Shown piece after piece: positions 4,690 to 56,671 of a DNA stretch of 64,000 bases. The notes under the pieces are model-generated. The model made no database searches. It was not told the DNA's origin and was given only the letters and a program-made list of their open reading frames with translations. How positions within the stretch are numbered: position 1 is the first letter of the stretch; every line of letters starts with the position of its first letter. The translations under genes and the position numbers were made by a program. This DNA comes from Alphaproteobacteria bacterium HGW-Alphaproteobacteria-7 (GTDB taxonomy: Bacteria > Pseudomonadota > Alphaproteobacteria > Sphingomonadales > Sphingomonadaceae): contig PHEB01000006.1 of NCBI GenBank assembly GCA_002842735.1, positions 1 through 64,000 on the forward strand. Reading direction: 5' to 3'.

Positions 4690-6780
4690 ATGCGGCCCGA
4701 AATCCTCAATCCCCTGTTCGCCGAAACCGAAGCGCTCGATGGCGTCGGGCCAAAGCTGATGAAGCCGCTGGAGAAGCTCGGCCTCACGCGGATCAAGGAT
4801 GTCGCCTATCACCTGCCCGAACGCTTCGTCAGTCGCCATGCGATTGCCGATCTGGATGAAGCGGGCGAGGGCGAACAGGTGGTGATCGCGCTGACCCCGA
4901 TTGAACACCGCAGCCCCCGCCCCGGAAGCCGCGGGCCGTATCGGGTGCTGGCACAGGATGCCAAGGGCAATGTCTGCGCGCTGACGTGGTTCGGCAAGGC
5001 CGCCTATACCGCCAAAAAGCTGCTGCCTGTGGGGGAGACGCGCTGGATCGCCGGACGGCTCGATCGCTATGGCGATATGCTCCAGATCGTCCACCCCGAT
5101 CATGTCGAGGAAGCCAGCGCGGCGCATCTGGGGCGGCTGTGTGAACCGGTCTATCGCCTGTCCGAAGGGCTGACCCAGCCGCGCGTGGCGAGCATGGTGG
5201 AACAGGCGCTGACCCGCCTGCCAGACCTGCCCGAATGGATTGATCCGGGCCAGTTCGCCAAGGCTGGCTGGCCCGCCTGGCGTGATGCATTGCACCTGGC
5301 GCACAAGCAGGACAACCCCAAGGCGCGGGACCGCCTCGCCTATGATGAATTGCTGGCCAACAGCCTCGCGCTGCTGCTGGTCAAGGCCGAGGGCCGCCGC
5401 CGCCGTGGGCAGGCGCTGGCGGGGGATGGGGCCTTGCGCGCCAAGCTGCAATTGCCGTTCGCGCTGACGGGCGCGCAGACGCGCTCGATTGCCGAGATCG
5501 CGGGTGATCTGGCGCAGGAAGCGCCGATGTTGCGGTTGCTGCAAGGTGATGTTGGTGCGGGCAAAACCGTGGTCGCGCTCAATGCCATGCTGATCGCGGT
5601 GGAGGCGGGCAAGCAGGCGGCGTTGCTCGCGCCCACTGAAATCCTCGCCCGCCAGCATTTTGAAACGTTGCGCACCATGCTGCGCCCGACAGGGGTGGAA
5701 ATCGCATTGCTGACCGGCCGCGCCAAGGGGCGCGAGCGCGAGAGCATTTTGATGGGCCTGATGGATGGTTCAATCCAGCTGCTGGTCGGCACCCATGCGA
5801 TCTTTCAAGACACGGTAAATTACCGCGATCTGGGGCTGGTGGTGATCGATGAACAGCACCGCTTTGGCGTGGCGCAGCGGCTGGCGCTGGCGGGGAAGGG
5901 ACGGCGCGCTCCGCATACGCTGGCGATGACCGCGACCCCGATCCCGCGCTCGCTCACCCTTGCGCAATATGGCGAGATGGATGTCAGCCGCCTCGATGAA
6001 CTGCCCCCCGGACGGCAGGCGATTGATACCCGCGTCGTGCCGCAGGAACGGATGGATGAGGTGGTCGCCGGCGTCGAACGGCATCTCGCCAGCGGGCAAC
6101 AGGCCTATTGGGTGTGCCCGATGGTGCGCGAAATCGACGGGGTGCCCGACCTCGCCGAAATTGCCGCTGCCGAGGCCCGCTATGCCGCGCTGAAAGAGCG
6201 GTTTGGCGAGGCGGTGGTGCTGGTGCACGGGCAGTTGCGGCCAGAGGTAAAAGACGCCGCGATGGAGCGGTTTGCCAGCGGGCAGGCGCGGTTGCTGGTG
6301 GCGACCACGGTGATCGAGGTGGGGGTGGATGTCCCGGCGGCGACGCTGATGGTGATCGAACAGGCCGAACGCTTTGGCCTTGCCCAATTGCACCAACTGC
6401 GCGGGCGGGTGGGGCGCGGGGCGGAGAAATCCACCTGCCTGCTGCTGCGCGGCGGGGCACTGTCTGAAACCGCGCGCGCGCGGCTCGCCCTGATGCGCGA
6501 AACGCAGGACGGGTTCCGCATCGCCGAGGAGGATCTTGAATTGCGCGGTGGGGGCGAATTGCTCGGCACAAGGCAATCGGGCGAAGCGGCGTTCCGGATC
6601 GCCAATCTGGAACAGATGCAGCGGCTGCTGCCGACCGCCCATGCCGATGCGCGGCTGCTGATCGAGCGGGACGATGGGGCACCGGGCGGCGGGCTGGCTT
6701 CCCCGCGCGGAGAAGCGGCGCGGTTGCTGTTATATTTGTTTGAACGCGATTGGGGCGTGCAGTTGTTGCGCGGGGGTTAG
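4690..6780 (+). CDS. recG: ATP-dependent DNA helicase RecG
   Basis: RecG is a branch-migration helicase that regresses stalled forks and processes recombination intermediates. The 696-aa protein has the family layout: an N-terminal wedge/OB domain, then two helicase lobes. Walker A GDVGAGKT starts at about residue 286, the DEQHRFG box lies near 387, and the motif V/VI region reads ATTVIEVGVDVP...QLHQLRGRVGRG. The C-terminal RecG wedge-type domain includes the ELRGGGELLGTRQSG signature. The gene overlaps the tail-to-tail tyrosine phosphatase gene by four bases. A single CtrA-like half-site lies 58 bases upstream. Identification is secure. Confidence 0.97.
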   Translation: MRPEILNPLFAETEALDGVGPKLMKPLEKLGLTRIKDVAYHLPERFVSRHAIADLDEAGEGEQVVIALTPIEHRSPRPGSRGPYRVLAQDAKGNVCALTWFGKAAYTAKKLLPVGETRWIAGRLDRYGDMLQIVHPDHVEEASAAHLGRLCEPVYRLSEGLTQPRVASMVEQALTRLPDLPEWIDPGQFAKAGWPAWRDALHLAHKQDNPKARDRLAYDELLANSLALLLVKAEGRRRRGQALAGDGALRAKLQLPFALTGAQTRSIAEIAGDLAQEAPMLRLLQGDVGAGKTVVALNAMLIAVEAGKQAALLAPTEILARQHFETLRTMLRPTGVEIALLTGRAKGRERESILMGLMDGSIQLLVGTHAIFQDTVNYRDLGLVVIDEQHRFGVAQRLALAGKGRRAPHTLAMTATPIPRSLTLAQYGEMDVSRLDELPPGRQAIDTRVVPQERMDEVVAGVERHLASGQQAYWVCPMVREIDGVPDLAEIAAAEARYAALKERFGEAVVLVHGQLRPEVKDAAMERFASGQARLLVATTVIEVGVDVPAATLMVIEQAERFGLAQLHQLRGRVGRGAEKSTCLLLRGGALSETARARLALMRETQDGFRIAEEDLELRGGGELLGTRQSGEAAFRIANLEQMQRLLPTAHADARLLIERDDGAPGGGLASPRGEAARLLLYLFERDWGVQLLRGG

Positions 6781-7277
6781 GCGACCGGGTCAGACCCTGC
6801 GCTGGCCAGACGCTGCACCAGCGCCTGTGCCCCTTCGGTGATGATCTGCCACGCCGCTTCGAAGGCGGCGCTATCGCCGTAATAGGGATCAGGCACGGGC
6901 TCACCTTCGCGGCCATTGACCGCATCCAGCAGCAGCGCGACCGTGGCTGTCCCGTCGCGCGGGGCGTGGGCCTTGATCCCTTCAAGATTGGCGCGGTCGA
7001 GCGCGATGACGTGGGTGAAGCGGTAGAAGTCATCGGCCTTCAACTGACGCGCGATTAGTCCGGCAATGTCCACGCCGTTGGAGCGGGCAACTGCAATGGC
7101 GCGCGGATCGGGCGGATCGCCAATGTGATAGGATGCGGTCCCGGCGGAATCGACGTGGCAATCGAGGCCGCTCTGCGCTGCGGCGGCGCGAAACGCGCCT
7201 TCGGCCATGGGTGATCGGCAGATATTGCCGAGGCACACGAACAGTACCGATGTTATGTGATCACCCCCAGCGAACAT
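6777..7277 (-). CDS. Low-molecular-weight protein-tyrosine phosphatase
   Basis: This is a cytoplasmic phosphatase of the arsenate-reductase/LMW-PTP fold. The 166-aa protein shows the P-loop CLGNICRSP, the C-x5-R-S signature (Cys at residue 15), and the general-acid aspartate in VPDPYYG near residue 127. In other bacteria such enzymes dephosphorylate tyrosine kinases that control exopolysaccharide export. A BY-kinase-like gene of the XrtA locus lies at 62914, but no functional link is visible from position. The start at 7277 leaves a short MFAGGDHITS leader before the first strand; an alternative start would have to be non-ATG. Its stop overlaps the recG stop. Confidence 0.9.
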   Translation of the reverse strand: MFAGGDHITSVLFVCLGNICRSPMAEGAFRAAAAQSGLDCHVDSAGTASYHIGDPPDPRAIAVARSNGVDIAGLIARQLKADDFYRFTHVIALDRANLEGIKAHAPRDGTATVALLLDAVNGREGEPVPDPYYGDSAAFEAAWQIITEGAQALVQRLASAGSDPVA

Positions 7278-7326: not shown

Positions 7327-7342
7327 TGTTTCACGTGAAACA
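7327..7342. other. parS site (ParB-binding centromere)
   Basis: TGTTTCACGTGAAACA is a perfect 16-bp palindrome and equals the alphaproteobacterial parS consensus; palindromy extends to 7325-7344. It lies between the divergently arranged phosphatase and CHASE2-EAL genes, 198 bases before the latter. ParB binds such sites to segregate the origin region, so this window is probably origin-proximal. That last point is inference from other genomes. Confidence 0.9.
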
Positions 7343-7363
7343 TCAGGAAAACAGGCGATAAAT

Positions 7364-7418
7364 CGGGTCTAGGAGGGGTCTAAGGGGGGGCAAGGAGGGG
7401 TCTAGCAGGGGTCAAGCA
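7364..7418 (+). repeat. Five tandem 11-bp G-rich units next to parS
   Basis: Five consecutive 11-base units begin at 7364, 7375, 7386, 7397 and 7408, of the form GGGGTCTAGGA with small changes (first unit starts CGGG; third reads GGGGGCAAGGA). The period is exactly 11, close to one helical turn. The G-tracts are separated by 5-7 bases, so the plus strand also fits the G3+N1-7 quadruplex pattern. A sister array lies at 56347-56390 beside the second parS-like site. Confidence 0.85.
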
Positions 7419-7541: not shown

Positions 7542-9908
7542 ATGATCAGATCACTGCAATCAACAGTACACTACCTGCGGCGCGCCTTTGGCTTTGCCGG
7601 CGATGAGGTTGCTGTGCTGAACGGCGGAATCATCCGCAATTCGGGCGCGGCGCTGCTCCGGCGCAAGCGTGCCAAGGTGGCGGGTTTTGCGATCCTGTTC
7701 GGGATCGTGTCAGCCGTGATTGAGCTGCCGTTGCCTGCCGAAGACTTCTACCGCGCGATGCGGGCCGAGGTGCGATCCAAGCCTGCACCGCAGGACGTGG
7801 TGATGATCGCGATCGACGACAAGACACTCAATGCGTTCCAGCGGGCAATGCCGTCGCGCGTGGATGACAGCCGCCTGATCGACACGCTGATCGCATCGGG
7901 GGTAGAAAGAGTCGTATTTGACCGCGCGCATGCTGATCCAGAAAGCCCGCAAGCCGATACGCTGTTTGCCCAGACCCTTGCCCGTCACAAGGGCAAGGTC
8001 TGGCTCGGCTTCGTGCCCAGGCATGAATTTGGGTTCCAGACTGTCGAGGAGATTGTTCCGCGAGTTGCGTTTCGCGAGGAGGTGCAACTTGCAGCAATGA
8101 ACGGGTTTGGAGCCCCTTTCGGCTTTTCGGTTACCTTTCCAACTAGTGCTAATCTAAACGGAAAAAAGCATTCGTCGCTCTCTGCGGTCTTGGGGGAATA
8201 TAATGGCCCAGACCGTCTTTATCGCCCGGATTATGCGTTCAACCCGGACACTATTCCGACTTTCAGTTACATTGATGTCCTCAGAGGCGAGGTTTCTGCT
8301 AACGGCCTCGCGGGGAAAAACGTGGTTGTTGGCGAGACGTACTATTTATCGACCGACTATTTTCGCCTGCCCCTGCGGGACGGCAAAGTTCCCGGTGCCT
8401 ATTTTCACATCATGGGCGCACATACGCTCAAGCGCGGGGTGCCGGTTGACCTGATGTGGGTTCCGGCGCTGCTGGTTGCCGGGCTCGCGATAATGGCGCA
8501 GGTTCTGGCGAATTCGAAATCGTCGCGCGCGCTGGTGGTTTCGGCAGGCGGATTGCTCACCGTGCCGCTGGTGCTCGACGAATTCGGCGTCAATATTGAT
8601 GTGATGTCAGCGCTGCTGGCCATGCTGGCAGCGGGCATCGGGTTTCAACGCATCGCCCGCAAATATTATAGCCAGGATGTCGATGCGATGAGCACTTCGG
8701 CGTTGAGTTCCGATCAGGTCAGCGCCGGACGCGATGTCTATGCTTTGAAAATCGCCAGCCTGGCTGAAATGTCGGAAGAATGGACCGCGCGCGAACTGGG
8801 CGAGTTTGTCAGCACGCTGATCGCTTATATCAAAGGGCCGGGCGAGACGGGCGATGTTGCGTTTGATCGCGACGTTCTGGTGTGGCTGGCCCCGCGGATG
8901 GACACTGTCAGTCTCGAACGGCATGCCGATGGCCTTGCGCTGATGCTCAAGACTGCGATCAGCCATGATTGGCAATCGGCCAGCAGTGCACCGGCGCTGG
9001 GGATCGATACCAATTATGACCTGCCGCTTGGCCAGCGTATCAAGAAGGCGATGCAGGCGGCTGAGGAAGCCGCTTCGCGCGGCGCGCGGTTTATCATCAA
9101 TGATCCCGCCTATCTCGAAGCCCGCAACCAGCGGGTTGGATTGTTGCGGGTGCTGGAAAAAGGGCTGCGTGATCGCAGTATCGGGGTGGCTTTCCAACCC
9201 AAGGTCGATCTGCTCACCGGCCGGATTGTCGGCGCGGAAACGCTGATCCGCTGGCAGCCTGATGGCAAGGAGTGGGTCAATCCGCAAGAATTGGTGCTCG
9301 CCGCCGAAGCCGGGGATCGCATCAACGAATTGACGCTGGTGGTGATGGAAGCCGCGTTGGTTGACGGCAGGAAAGCGATTGCGCTTGATCCGGCCTTCAA
9401 GCTGGCAGTCAACATGTCAGCCAAAAGCCTGAGCGACGCGCATCTGATGTTCGACATCATGACAATGCTGGGCCGCCATGCCTTCCCGCCGGGCAACCTC
9501 ACGCTGGAACTGACCGAGACTGCCAAGTTGGAGGACGAGCGAATCGCGCCGCAAATCGCCGCGCTCAAACAGCGCGGGATCAGTCTGTCGATCGATGATT
9601 TCGGCACCGGGCAATCAAATCTCGAATATATCGAGAAGTTGCCCAGTACCGAACTCAAGATCGACAAACGCTTTGTGCAGAACATGGCGACATCGGAAGA
9701 AAGCCGCGCCGTGGTGCGCGCCACGATCGAAATCGCCCACTCGCTGGGCAAGGTGGTGGTGGCCGAAGGTGTCGAGGATCAGGCAGTCGCCGCCACCTTG
9801 CGCGCGATGGGCTGCGACCATGCGCAAGGCTACCTGTTTGCACGGGCAATTACGATGCCAGAGCTGCTGTCGATGATGGGCGGCGGGAGAATCGTAGTTA
9901 ACGGTTGA
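7542..9908 (+). CDS. CHASE2-sensor, EAL-domain cyclic-di-GMP phosphodiesterase
   Basis: The 788-aa membrane protein has a transmembrane helix at about residues 43-62, then a periplasmic CHASE2-type sensor to about residue 300. Two or three closely spaced transmembrane helices follow (about 304-370), then a linker. Next comes a region (about 440-530) with the look of a degenerate GGDEF fold lacking the signature. A C-terminal EAL domain ends the protein. EAL residues look competent: E-x-L-x-R at E566 (the motif reads ETL rather than EAL), NMSAKS, ELTE, DDFGTG near 685, KIDK, AEGVE and QGYLFA. It should hydrolyse c-di-GMP in response to an extracytoplasmic signal. A PilZ effector candidate is encoded at 32740. 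The stop is followed within seven bases by a CtrA-type box. Confidence 0.9.
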   Translation: MIRSLQSTVHYLRRAFGFAGDEVAVLNGGIIRNSGAALLRRKRAKVAGFAILFGIVSAVIELPLPAEDFYRAMRAEVRSKPAPQDVVMIAIDDKTLNAFQRAMPSRVDDSRLIDTLIASGVERVVFDRAHADPESPQADTLFAQTLARHKGKVWLGFVPRHEFGFQTVEEIVPRVAFREEVQLAAMNGFGAPFGFSVTFPTSANLNGKKHSSLSAVLGEYNGPDRLYRPDYAFNPDTIPTFSYIDVLRGEVSANGLAGKNVVVGETYYLSTDYFRLPLRDGKVPGAYFHIMGAHTLKRGVPVDLMWVPALLVAGLAIMAQVLANSKSSRALVVSAGGLLTVPLVLDEFGVNIDVMSALLAMLAAGIGFQRIARKYYSQDVDAMSTSALSSDQVSAGRDVYALKIASLAEMSEEWTARELGEFVSTLIAYIKGPGETGDVAFDRDVLVWLAPRMDTVSLERHADGLALMLKTAISHDWQSASSAPALGIDTNYDLPLGQRIKKAMQAAEEAASRGARFIINDPAYLEARNQRVGLLRVLEKGLRDRSIGVAFQPKVDLLTGRIVGAETLIRWQPDGKEWVNPQELVLAAEAGDRINELTLVVMEAALVDGRKAIALDPAFKLAVNMSAKSLSDAHLMFDIMTMLGRHAFPPGNLTLELTETAKLEDERIAPQIAALKQRGISLSIDDFGTGQSNLEYIEKLPSTELKIDKRFVQNMATSEESRAVVRATIEIAHSLGKVVVAEGVEDQAVAATLRAMGCDHAQGYLFARAITMPELLSMMGGGRIVVNG

Positions 9909-54881: not shown

Positions 54882-55666
54882 GCCCGCAATGCGCTGAGGA
54901 TTTCGGCCTTCAGCCAGTCGCGATGTTCCGGTTCAACATAGGCGTGGCCTGCGCCGTCGCAGCGCCGGATGCGCGGGTCGGATGGGTTCCATGCGCTCTC
55001 GAACACTTGCGCGGTGCGGTCTACGGTGGCGAGCAGGATGCGGACATCGCCAGCAAAGCCTGCCAACCCCGCGCGCATTTCCTCGGCCAGCGTTGATGGC
55101 GGCGGGGCAGGGCGCAGAGAACGGGTGAGGCCGCGCGCCAGCTTGCGCAGATCAACCCCGCCGCCCAGCAAACGCGCAATTTCGCGCGGGTTTTTGAGCT
55201 TTTCGAGATAACGCGCGCGGATCGCTGCGGGGGGCGGGGTGGCATCATCCTCGGCCCCGTCATCCTGCTCGATCGTCCAGGGGTTCGAGAGCACCAGCCC
55301 ATCGCATCCCGCGCCGCCAGCCAGCATCAGCGCCGAGGCGGCATCGCAATTGCCGAAAGCAACCACGCGGGTGATCTGCGGTGCCATCGCCCGGAATGCG
55401 TCGAGCGCGGCGGCGATATCGCCCGCGCTTTTGCGAAATCCGCGGTTTTCACCCTCGCTGTCACCCACCCCGCGCCGGTCAAACCGGAACACGGGGAACC
55501 CGGCGCAGGCGATGCGCGCGGCGAGCTGCGCCTGTCCGCCAAACGCGCCGCTGCGGATTTCGTTGCCGCCGCTGACGATCAGCAGTCCGCAGGTGCCCGG
55601 CGCGGTGTCGAGCGTGCCCGCCAGCGTCTGGCTGCCGCAGCCGAAGGTGAGCGGGAGGCGGGTCAT
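54878..55666 (-). CDS. Hydrolase 1, exosortase A system-associated
   Basis: The 262-aa alpha/beta-hydrolase belongs to the TIGR03100-like group found beside XrtA exopolysaccharide genes. Visible motifs are IVSGGNEIRSGAFGGQAQLA, the FRFDRRGVGDSEG segment and the nucleophile region VAFGNCDAASAL, where cysteine sits in the GxCxA elbow. A late His occurs in DGAGHAYVEPEH. Its substrate is unknown; a role on acyl or glycan intermediates of the EPS pathway is inferred from context. It is the last gene of the minus-strand arm and overlaps hydrolase 2 by four bases. Confidence 0.87.
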   Translation of the reverse strand: MTRLPLTFGCGSQTLAGTLDTAPGTCGLLIVSGGNEIRSGAFGGQAQLAARIACAGFPVFRFDRRGVGDSEGENRGFRKSAGDIAAALDAFRAMAPQITRVVAFGNCDAASALMLAGGAGCDGLVLSNPWTIEQDDGAEDDATPPPAAIRARYLEKLKNPREIARLLGGGVDLRKLARGLTRSLRPAPPPSTLAEEMRAGLAGFAGDVRILLATVDRTAQVFESAWNPSDPRIRRCDGAGHAYVEPEHRDWLKAEILSALRA

Positions 55667-56340
55667 GCCAGTGCCTCGATGATGATCGTTGCCAGAGCGT
55701 CAGTCTGCGCGGCGTCTTCGGCAGGTTCGGCGCGGAGCCACAGGCCGGGGCCGCCGAGTTCCGGCTGCGCGATGCCGTGCTGACCGGGGGAGAGAGCGGG
55801 TTCTGCGGTCTCCAGCGCCGCAATCATCGCCGCGCCCATGTGCCAGCCGCCGAGCGTTAGCCCCGCGCTCCGGCCGATGGCCAACAGCTCGTCAGAAGTC
55901 TCTGAAATACCCGCCTCACGCGCAGCAATAATGCGGGCGCGGATCATGCCGCGCAGCAGTTTGGGGCCGGATTGCGCGGCATAATGCCACCCCGGCAGCC
56001 CCGCCGGGGCCAGCAGCGCACCGGCGCGGATCGCCAGCACATGGGTCGCGGCAAAGCTGGTGGCGGCAATATCGGCAGCCCTGCGCCAACCCTCCAACGT
56101 CTGGTACGCGAGCGGGGCGAGGCTTTCATTGCAACCGGGCAGATCGGGCAGAAAGCTGTCGATTCCGGCTGCATCAAGACGCCGCATAACCTCGACCGTA
56201 AAGCGCCGCAGCTTGTTTGCCTCGTCAAACCATGCGGGCAATATCAGCACCCGCGCCGCGCGGCCCCGGTCGAAGGGTACCAGCAGTTCTTCGCCGGGCG
56301 AGCCGCCATCGGGCGCCGGAATGTTCCACGTGAAACTCAC
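55663..56340 (-). CDS. Hydrolase 2, exosortase A system-associated
   Basis: The 225-aa protein matches the second hydrolase of XrtA loci (TIGR03101-like), with ARVLILPAWFDEANKLRR, FLPDLPGCNESL and a GGWHMGAAM segment. The nucleophile region (AIRAGALLAPAG) does not show a standard G-x-S-x-G, as is usual for this group. Function is inferred only from genomic context. The start is GTG at 56340; no clear Shine-Dalgarno precedes it. Codons 2-6 are encoded by a parS-like palindrome (56322-56337). Confidence 0.83.
   Translation of the reverse strand: MSFTWNIPAPDGGSPGEELLVPFDRGRAARVLILPAWFDEANKLRRFTVEVMRRLDAAGIDSFLPDLPGCNESLAPLAYQTLEGWRRAADIAATSFAATHVLAIRAGALLAPAGLPGWHYAAQSGPKLLRGMIRARIIAAREAGISETSDELLAIGRSAGLTLGGWHMGAAMIAALETAEPALSPGQHGIAQPELGGPGLWLRAEPAEDAAQTDALATIIIEALA
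56322..56337. other. Second parS-like site, on the first codons of hydrolase 2
   Basis: TGTTCCACGTGAAACT differs from the Bacillus-type parS TGTTCCACGTGAAACA only in the last base, and from the alphaproteobacterial form at 7327 in two bases. It lies directly after the GTG start codon of the minus-strand gene. Its location beside an 11-bp G-rich array, as at 7327, makes a chance match unlikely. Confidence 0.65.
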
Positions 56341-56346
56341 GCAAGC

Positions 56347-56390
56347 AGGGGCCTAAAGGGGGTCAAGAGGGGGTCTGGAGGGGGTCTAGC
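56347..56390 (+). repeat. Four tandem 11-bp G-rich units next to the second parS-like site
   Basis: Four 11-base units begin at 56347, 56358, 56369 and 56380 with G-tracts at constant period; the units include GGGGGTCAAGA, GGGGGTCTGGA and GGGGGTCTAGC. Loops of six bases between runs of four to five G fit the quadruplex pattern. The array overlaps the end of the acyl carrier protein gene, coding its last residues LDPLQTPS on the minus strand. It has the same consensus and orientation as the array at 7364-7418. Confidence 0.85.
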
Positions 56391-56671
56391 TTGGCGCGCG
56401 CAAATGCCCGCAGCCCGCCATAGGTTTCGAGCATTTCGCCATCCACATCGTCATCTTCGATCACGATGCCGAGCCGGTCTTCCATCTCGGTCAGCAGGCC
56501 CGCCACCGCCATCGAATCGAGTTCGGGCAAGTGACCAAACAGCCCCGAATCCGCGTCAAACGCAGCCGCCTGTGCCGGATCAAGGCCAAGCACATCGGCG
56601 ATCAGCGTCTGCAATTGCTGGTCGAGCGCGGCTTCGTCCAATTGGCCATCAATGATTGGCGTGATGCTCAT
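56363..56671 (-). CDS. Acyl carrier protein, exosortase A system-associated
   Basis: The 102-aa ACP has the phosphopantetheine-attachment serine in ELDSMAVAGLL (near residue 53) and acidic helices typical of ACPs. Next to an acyl-CoA ligase and a GNAT/FemAB-like acyltransferase, it probably carries an acyl group or amino acid used to modify the exopolysaccharide. Its last codons overlap the 11-bp G-rich array, and 22 bases separate it from hydrolase 2. Confidence 0.92.
   Translation of the reverse strand: MSITPIIDGQLDEAALDQQLQTLIADVLGLDPAQAAAFDADSGLFGHLPELDSMAVAGLLTEMEDRLGIVIEDDDVDGEMLETYGGLRAFARAKLDPLQTPS

Follow-up and report, generated by a model that had tools for sequence, protein, structure and literature searches.

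Dispersed parS sites with one-sided, helically phased arrays in an Erythrobacter-type group

The usual rule for chromosomal parS sites is that they belong at the origin. The sites described here resemble the ParABS sites of Bacillus subtilis and Caulobacter in having the common 16-bp palindrome (or a TTCC/GGAA spelling) and a cognate ParB gene at a cluster of sites without arrays. Unlike them, they are accompanied in each of the three genomes studied by a further 26–47 copies dispersed round the chromosome, the majority with a one-sided, phased array. Many dispersed ParB-type sites are also found in Bacillus as the Noc-binding sites, Noc being a paralogue of ParB. The present sites differ from that system in several respects: two of the richest genomes contain no ParB paralogue, the dispersed sites share the spelling of the par locus, there is no clear terminus avoidance, and an array is present. 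In Pseudomonas aeruginosa, ParB is found at hundreds of dispersed 7-bp half-parS sites, as described in excerpts of PMC7022226. Binding of ParB at many places off the origin would be a shared feature, although here it is predicted from sequence, and the sites are full 16-bp palindromes that are conserved in place and associated with arrays.

Direct-repeat arrays are associated with certain plasmid centromeres. The excerpted text of PMC9426499 states that ParR of plasmid R1 needs at least two 11-bp repeats and that the repeats of pB171 are 10 bp, whilst that of PMC9499535 gives four or more contiguous repeats as the requirement in pSM19035. The R1 parC, pB171 and pSM19035 centromeres are similar to the present element in being direct-repeat arrays, with repeats of ~10–11 bp in R1 and pB171 as here, but here the array is joined to a ParB-type parS and dispersed over the chromosome, with no parR (RHH) or parM gene beside the sites first noted. 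As portrayed in these excerpts, R1 parC and pSM19035 indicate that ordered partition complexes can be nucleated by arrays of this sort; the element may function in a similar way but is not one of them. A further likeness is to the sites of Escherichia coli gyrase, which have flanking arms whose GC content varies with a 10.75-bp period (PMC6379681, in excerpt); the reference list of the same paper includes work on gyrase binding at the pSC101 partition locus. The arrays have in common with strong gyrase sites and the E. coli motif a 10.75-bp periodicity over tens of base pairs, but differ in their single arm, base-specific units and lock to parS.

The two composite sites of the window

The window is the whole stretch of DNA that was analysed, 64,000 nucleotides in length. 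It belongs to contig C13 of its own genome, a 2.66-Mb assembly of 39 contigs referred to below as G000. The two sites and their neighbours are as follows.

6777..7277, minus strand: low-molecular-weight protein tyrosine phosphatase gene (PF01451), the divergent neighbour of the first site
7327..7342, no strand: parS palindrome TGTTTCACGTGAAACA, perfect, among the 30 exact copies of G000
7343..7363, plus strand: spacer, 21 bases between parS and the units
7364..7418, plus strand: one-sided array of five 11-bp units, CGGGTCTAGGA GGGGTCTAAGG GGGGGCAAGGA GGGGTCTAGCA GGGGTCAAGCA
7542..9908, plus strand: CHASE2-EAL domain gene, the other neighbour of the first site
55666..56352, minus strand: open reading frame without a Pfam hit; the second parS-like site lies in its upstream part
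56322..56337, no strand: second parS-like site, TGTTCCACGTGAAACT, with two mismatches
56348..56391, plus strand: second array, four 11-bp units, GGGGCCTAAAG GGGGTCAAGAG GGGGTCTGGAG GGGGTCTAGCT
56363..56671, minus strand: phosphopantetheine-attachment (acyl-carrier-like) gene (PF00550), with its stop codon within the second array

The first site proved to be as described in the original prediction, a perfect parS at 7327–7342 followed after 21 bases by five 11-bp units, and the phenomenon is larger than was first noted. No palindrome with up to two mismatches appeared in 100 shuffles. The array at 7364–7418 has a chain score of 54.3, against 1.2 for the other side of its parS, and Tandem Repeats Finder reports it with a period of 11, 4.5 copies and a score of 63. 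The second half of the spacer, 7353–7363 (AGGCGATAAAT), scores as a degenerate in-phase unit (locus L009). The second site had been called the same combination, a description that is loose because its parS has two mismatches; the array itself is present, at 56348–56391, where it begins 10 bases past the parS and overlaps the 3' end of the phosphopantetheine-binding reading frame. When both strands of the 64-kb window were searched for in-step GGGGTC triplets with up to one mismatch per unit, these two arrays only were returned. Neither site has an orthologue among the loci compared from relatives, and no partition genes are found beside them, the neighbours being the phosphatase and CHASE2-EAL genes in one case and the acyl-carrier-like gene and the Pfam-less reading frame in the other.

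Arrays at dispersed parS, their register and their spelling

Beyond the 30 exact copies of parS, G000 contains several with one or two mismatches. Four of the exact copies are clustered at the par locus, next to a ParB gene identified by family search on contig C38, and are arrayless; the other 26 are dispersed over many contigs, and C13 does not hold the cluster. The neighbouring genes of the C38 par locus are, from their sequences, presumably parA, gidB, gidA and trmE. A relative with a single 3.09-Mb contig, G003, has 52 exact parS, made up of seven in the par cluster and 45 dispersed. G022 contains no parS of the exact spelling. Next to its parB, however, are two parS of the form TGTTCCACGTGGAACA, and its 2.98-Mb chromosome has 55 matches to TGTTYCACGTGRAACA, of which 52 are spelled TGTTCCACGTGGAACA; eight of the 55 are in the par cluster and 47 are dispersed.

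Arrays were read site by site in G000, G003, G022 and a preselected set from G495, and by pattern only in G262, G483 and G494. Scoring was performed with a chain model based on an 11-bp weight matrix and steps of 10–12 bp. The sites scored also served to train and refine the unit matrix, and the controls, namely the opposite side of each parS and distant stretches, were scored with the same matrix. On this basis 22 of the 26 dispersed parS in G000 score at least 18.9 on one side, with a best opposite-side score of 9.5, and 40 of the 45 in G003 score at least 25, with the opposite side at or below 14.3. Arrays are present at 36 of the 40 sites read in G022 (the first 40 of its 47 dispersed sites), and in none of the three genomes does the opposite side of the same parS exceed 14.3. 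Distant 160-bp control stretches reached 15 in 2 of 758 cases in G000, 3 of 810 in G003 and 4 of 720 in G022, and the comparison with background DNA proposed in the original prediction thus came out in favour of an association. The top control scores were 30.3, 33.0 and 46.3, respectively, and hence a few strong arrays do stand apart from parS. Dispersed parS without arrays number 4 of 26 in G000, 5 of 45 in G003 and 4 of 40 in G022. At the par cluster no array was detected in the 50-bp flanks of the eight G022 sites, and within 160 bp of the 11 exact parS at the par loci of G000 and G003 there are three GGGTC pointing away and three pointing toward the site, which amounts to no array.

A number of local peculiarities were also recorded. 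Array-like matches lie on both sides of a few parS, in G483 (C11:46613–46663 and C44:121314–121373) and in G495 (C1:352811–352887 and 2921344–2921434). At L007 (G000:C11:97360) and L022 (C31:40181) a GC-rich, hairpin-like stretch (GGGCGCCGCGATC...CTCGCAGCGCCC), terminator-like in appearance, is located between parS and the array. The contig ends at L033 (end of C3) and L005 (start of C11) have the same DNA just downstream of their arrays, which suggests a break in the assembly where a stretch next to a parS-array element is duplicated.

The units hold a fixed phase to parS, with a best period of 10.75 bp, in keeping with the helical phasing that was originally proposed. When GGGTC motifs pointing away from parS are pooled at a period of 11, R is 0.82 in G003 (n=110) and 0.79 in G000 (n=53), and a scan in steps of 0.25 gives 10.75 bp as the best period in both; the motifs pointing toward parS (n=20 and n=9) have no significant phase. 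Because each array contributes several units, which are not independent, the pooled Rayleigh test overstates significance, and one value per site was used instead, taken from the nearest GGGTC pointing away from each parS at a period of 10.75. This gave R=0.91 (p~4e-15) for 40 of 45 sites in G003, R=0.78 (p~3e-6) for 21 of 26 in G000 and R=0.73 (p~2e-9) for 38 of 40 in G022. A GGGTC pointing toward parS is found at 15 of the 45 G003 sites, with a weak phase at 10.75 (p=0.04) that fades at 11 (p=0.21), at 8 of 26 in G000 (p=0.47) and at 10 of 40 in G022 (p=0.19, or 0.06 at a period of 11).

The claim of a repeat of exactly 11 bp holds for 7364–7418; genome-wide, 11- and 10-bp steps are mixed, with a mean of ~10.7 bp. 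Steps of 11, 10 and 12 bp number 172, 60 and 4 in G003, 65, 25 and 0 in G000, and 103, 20 and 0 in G022. The mean of 10.7–10.8 bp in these genomes is close to the helical repeat of B-DNA. The corresponding steps in G495 number 57, 5 and 5, with a mean of 11.0. Alignment of the G022 sites at fixed positions reveals a module of ~55–66 bp straight after parS, and the median far end of the array is at 87 bp in G003 and 64.5 bp in G000.

The unit approximates to ssGGG(T/G/C)C(T/A)RR. A C is found at position 6 in 94% of units in G003, 96% in G000 and 100% in G022, with values of 0.49–0.95 for the positions of the G-tract. In G495, where the 20 regions read came from 22 listed matches preselected as array-like and so show the unit and not its frequency, position 6 is C at 0.77, position 7 is A at 0.92 and the G positions stand at 0.60–0.77. 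The G-quadruplex that was originally considered is weakened by these figures, since the C after the G-tract is the most conserved base in G000, G003 and G022 and many in-phase units have no G-tract. By eye, the arrays of G495 (L262–L281) tend to open with CATC/CAAC-type units, which are followed by CAAA and finally by CTAG or CTGGAATC, an order suggestive of a module with a defined beginning and end.

The prevailing unit differs between genomes, as would be expected of a trans-acting reader. It is CTAG in G000, GGGGTCTAG/CTAA (i.e. CTAG/CTAA) in G022, CTGG/CTGA/CAAA in G003 and GGGGTCATC/GGGGTCAAC (CATC/CAAC type) in G494 and G495. With regard to parS itself, both arms are respelled at 21 of 21 aligned pairs between G022 and G003, the G003 members of which had been chosen for the other spelling. 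The spellings are mixed in other parS-rich genomes (G437, G439, G440 and G441), and near-uniform respelling is consequently a property of G022 alone and no rule.

Conservation, chromosomal position and taxonomic range

The best flanking segments of the loci are ~74–88% identical between species. Orthologous pairs were defined as those whose parS positions correspond within 250 bases, one pair beyond this limit being left out in each of the G022–G003 and G000–G003 comparisons. Arrays are present in both members of the pair in 16 of 20 cases (G022–G003), 14 of 19 (G000–G003) and 13 of 17 (G022–G000), figures that come from overlapping and so non-independent comparisons, with five sites of one to three mismatches included on the G000 side. 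Without exception, the two arrays of such a pair are on the same side (16 of 16, 14 of 14 and 13 of 13, in the same order). Neither member has an array in 3, 4 and 3 pairs, respectively, and one pair in each comparison is mixed. Dispersed parS are arrayless at the same places in all three species at L010/L095/L302, L020/L108/L315 and L028/L148/L328 (with one mismatch in L028), and such shared places point to two conserved classes of dispersed parS.

Arrays without parS, which the original prediction had named as evidence against itself, do occur and tell against it in part. The 54 array-pattern matches of G000 (four for a reversed-pattern control) were grouped into 27 loci, 11 of which have no nearby parS at up to three mismatches; six of these 11 were read, and no parS was seen at up to four mismatches within ~160 bases. 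Of 11 matches without an exact parS that were read in G003, four have a one-mismatch parS near them and seven have none. Two parS-less arrays, one from G000 and one from G003, align with parS-array loci of other species (L062–L106 and L145–L299), indicating that parS can be lost, or is not yet gained, at a standing array. A parS-less array also lies between the same two genes in L038 (G000:C13 near 123798) and L128 (G003:C1 near 2698366), genes which we take from their protein sequences to be comEC-like and lexA-like; it is possibly a case of a lost parS or an array with a use of its own.

The sites are located all round the chromosome in both G003 and G022 and are not confined to the origin domain. 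From origin to terminus, with the terminus taken as the antipode, the quartiles contain 16/10/11/10 sites in G022 and 15/11/13/6 in G003 (z=-1.7, not significant). With sites all round the chromosome and a par locus without arrays, the original idea that the array marks origin-proximal DNA had to be rejected. The sites keep a minimum distance which, with the par cluster counted once, is 11.6 kb in G022 (0.000 of 5000 simulations) and 8.3 kb in G003 (exact spelling, P=0.002 versus random), and the spacing is more even than random in G022 (P=0.016) and not in G003 (P=0.80). The arrays of G003 form runs that are mostly plus at 65–473 kb, mostly minus at 620–916, mostly plus at 985–1480 and mostly minus at 1685–2160. 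A chromosome-wide orientation rule for this genome, a post hoc idea, was rejected (16 circular switches, p=0.13; replichores 11+/12- and 9+/8-).

The trait is restricted to one Erythrobacter-type group within one genus. With either spelling of parS, 48 of the 114 genomes of the genus have 7–69 sites and 66 have 0–5, the three genomes with none being 72–84% complete; with the exact spelling alone, 47 have 5–60 and 67 have 0–3. Arrayless parS in relatives, a second finding that would have spoken against the original prediction, are seen in part, in that the parS-poor members of the genus, with their 0–5 sites, have them at the par locus where they are listed by place, the sites lying within ~4 kb of parB in all those with positions given (10 of 13 members, one of them in part). 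In a ParB tree of 18 members of the genus and four outgroups, the ten parS-rich genomes included form one clade with 100/100 support.

Among 16 genomes from other genera of the order, the exact parS count is 0–3. A wide array pattern, run on fewer genomes than a narrower one, was matched once or twice each in 22 of 244 genomes of the same family outside the genus, and the matched strings of 11 of these genomes share a recurring TGGCTxGAyyTxGG-like stretch, taken here for gidB coding sequence at the par locus. The narrower pattern, which is TTTC-spelled and CTRG-type and so misses genomes like G022 and G495, was found in none of 386 genomes outside the genus. A two-unit pattern was matched by 58 stretches of GTDB contigs, every one of which carries the title Erythrobacter, Porphyrobacter, Erythrobacteraceae or Sphingomonadales/Alphaproteobacteria MAG. 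Erythrobacter colymbi and Porphyrobacter sp. AAP60 are among the bacteria with the element. At least 120 stretches of viral contigs have a parS-like palindrome followed by GGGKCWR within 34 bases; in the 80 loci that were read from these, a loose-match choice (L335–L414), 107 of 108 parS score below 15 and none has a comparable array, the single parS above 15 scoring 15.8 with 12-bp steps. The occurrence of parS in phage DNA may merit a separate look.

Possible readers of the array

The composite elements exist, are conserved and keep a fixed phase. The best explanation for them, which we hold with middling confidence, is that the dispersed parS are ParB-loading sites and that the array is a binding track for a sequence-specific protein docking in register with ParB. 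ParB would be expected to load at the dispersed parS from their agreement with the consensus, and we infer both a protein that reads the array and its role. The fixed register, the one-sidedness, the conserved side and the base-specific yet drifting unit argue for a reader of double-stranded DNA working with ParB, and the companion array is probably read by a protein. A protein acting with ParB, as a loading partner or as a barrier, was among the original suggestions and remains the best reading, with the binding itself presumed.

According to this explanation, each composite element would be formed of parS and then, on one side, ~5–8 helical turns with one GGG(T/G)C(T/A)RR-like unit per turn. 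A candidate sequence-specific protein would bind the array cooperatively along one face of the double helix, docked against ParB. The resulting asymmetric complex at each site may hold or block ParB clamps on the array side, or may recruit SMC or a topoisomerase. Taken as a network, these complexes would give the chromosome an organisation into domains tens of kb in size, and the arrayless par-locus cluster, separate from the network, would do partition. A search of the par locus for a reader gene common to three parS-rich genomes yet absent from four parS-poor ones gave none, and nothing convincing as an autoregulated reader gene was seen beside parS-less arrays at 13 loci (six in G000 and seven in G003). 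Counting against this explanation are the parS-less arrays and high array scores off parS, the arrayless dispersed parS, the mixed parS spelling of other parS-rich genomes, the weak phase of the toward-pointing GGGTC in G003 and the mean period, which also fits a passive wrapping signal.

It is unlikely that the array is instead a DNA-wrapping arm for gyrase (or topoisomerase IV), making each element a strong topoisomerase site next to ParB that gives negative supercoils or a topological boundary. The arms of E. coli gyrase sites share their period with the parS arrays, as excerpted from PMC6379681, which speaks for a topoisomerase role, and most units contain one pyrimidine-purine step (TA/TG/CA) per turn. 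However, the gyrase motif in those excerpts is symmetrical, two-armed and degenerate, whilst the array is one-sided with the opposite side at background, and it is more base-specific (position 6 C at 94–100%) with a prevailing spelling that varies by genome.

Nor does it seem at all probable that no extra protein is required and that ParB itself, or bendable phased DNA, uses the array for fold-back or one-sided clamp release. The register is fixed relative to parS itself, and the ten parS-rich genomes represent one ParB clade, so that ParB may have changed with the trait. Per-base conservation and the drift of unit spelling would nevertheless exceed what bendability needs, and no extra ParB domain is visible in the aligned ParB proteins of the clade.

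A Noc-like nucleoid occlusion run by ParB itself, in which the sites tether or mark the nucleoid and division is blocked over it, would account for the resemblance of chromosome-wide ParB-type sites to the Noc-binding sites of Bacillus, but is regarded as quite improbable. G003 and G011 each contain a single TIGR00180 match, whereas Noc is a paralogue of ParB, and a Noc-like paralogue is therefore not needed; G000 has two further, weaker matches, in long proteins of 730 and 737 aa. Moreover, the dispersed parS are spelled like those of the par locus, G022 included, G022 has no gradient towards the terminus and G003 a weak, non-significant one, and the array would go unexplained.

Array-bearing parS are mainly intergenic (35 of 40 in G003 and 18 of 22 in G000). 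Pooled over G022, G003 and G000, convergent genes flank 47 of the 81 intergenic array sites for which both neighbours were called (20 of 35 in G003 alone), compared with 7 of 86 background gaps of at least 80 bp and 28 of 185 of all neighbouring pairs. The 81 sites include orthologues and are not independent, 13 sites inside genes and four at locus edges are excluded, and these gene-context counts are approximate, coming from a home-made gene caller trained on 28 open reading frames of the window. The convergent excess favours a transcription element, with the C-rich strand as a Rho utilisation track or as an insulator between convergent genes and parS as incidental, and yet we consider this very doubtful. 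In tandem gene pairs the array runs against the genes in 17 cases and with them in nine (p=0.17), which gives no clear strand rule, and neither the phase lock to parS nor the conserved side is explained by such an element.

A recent interspersed mobile repeat of the REP/MITE kind with parS as a chance passenger, as many similar, mostly intergenic copies in both orientations might suggest, is hardly credible and was rejected, given that the near-identical stretch between copies is parS alone, that the arrays vary in length and sequence, that many sites are orthologous between species with side conserved and a minimum distance kept, and that the viral loci read (80 of at least 120, by loose-match choice) gave parS scores below 15 in all but one case.

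Returning to a ParB-docked reader, a wider proposal can be put forward more tentatively. The elements, which look like a novel mode of loading for the partition machinery along a chromosome, could constitute a chromosome-organising code peculiar to this group: a dispersed second class of chromosomal centromere sites, in which ParB is paired with a dedicated array reader in helical register, each of several dozen sites would have a direction and a boundary, and the spellings of site and reader would co-evolve. Among the listed results of open-access literature searches, no paper on dispersed parS with arrays was recognised by title or abstract.

In these bacteria the rule of an origin-bound parS is broken, with dozens of parS round the chromosome and, at most of those examined, a one-sided phased module. 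The group thereby provides a natural experiment on what limits ParB and SMC loading sites, and the comparison of G022 with its sisters provides another, on the respelling of a DNA-binding protein together with dozens of its sites. Should the array prove to be a barrier or loader with a direction, what determines which way and how far ParB slides and SMC is loaded could be tested on DNA pieces of ~100 bp.
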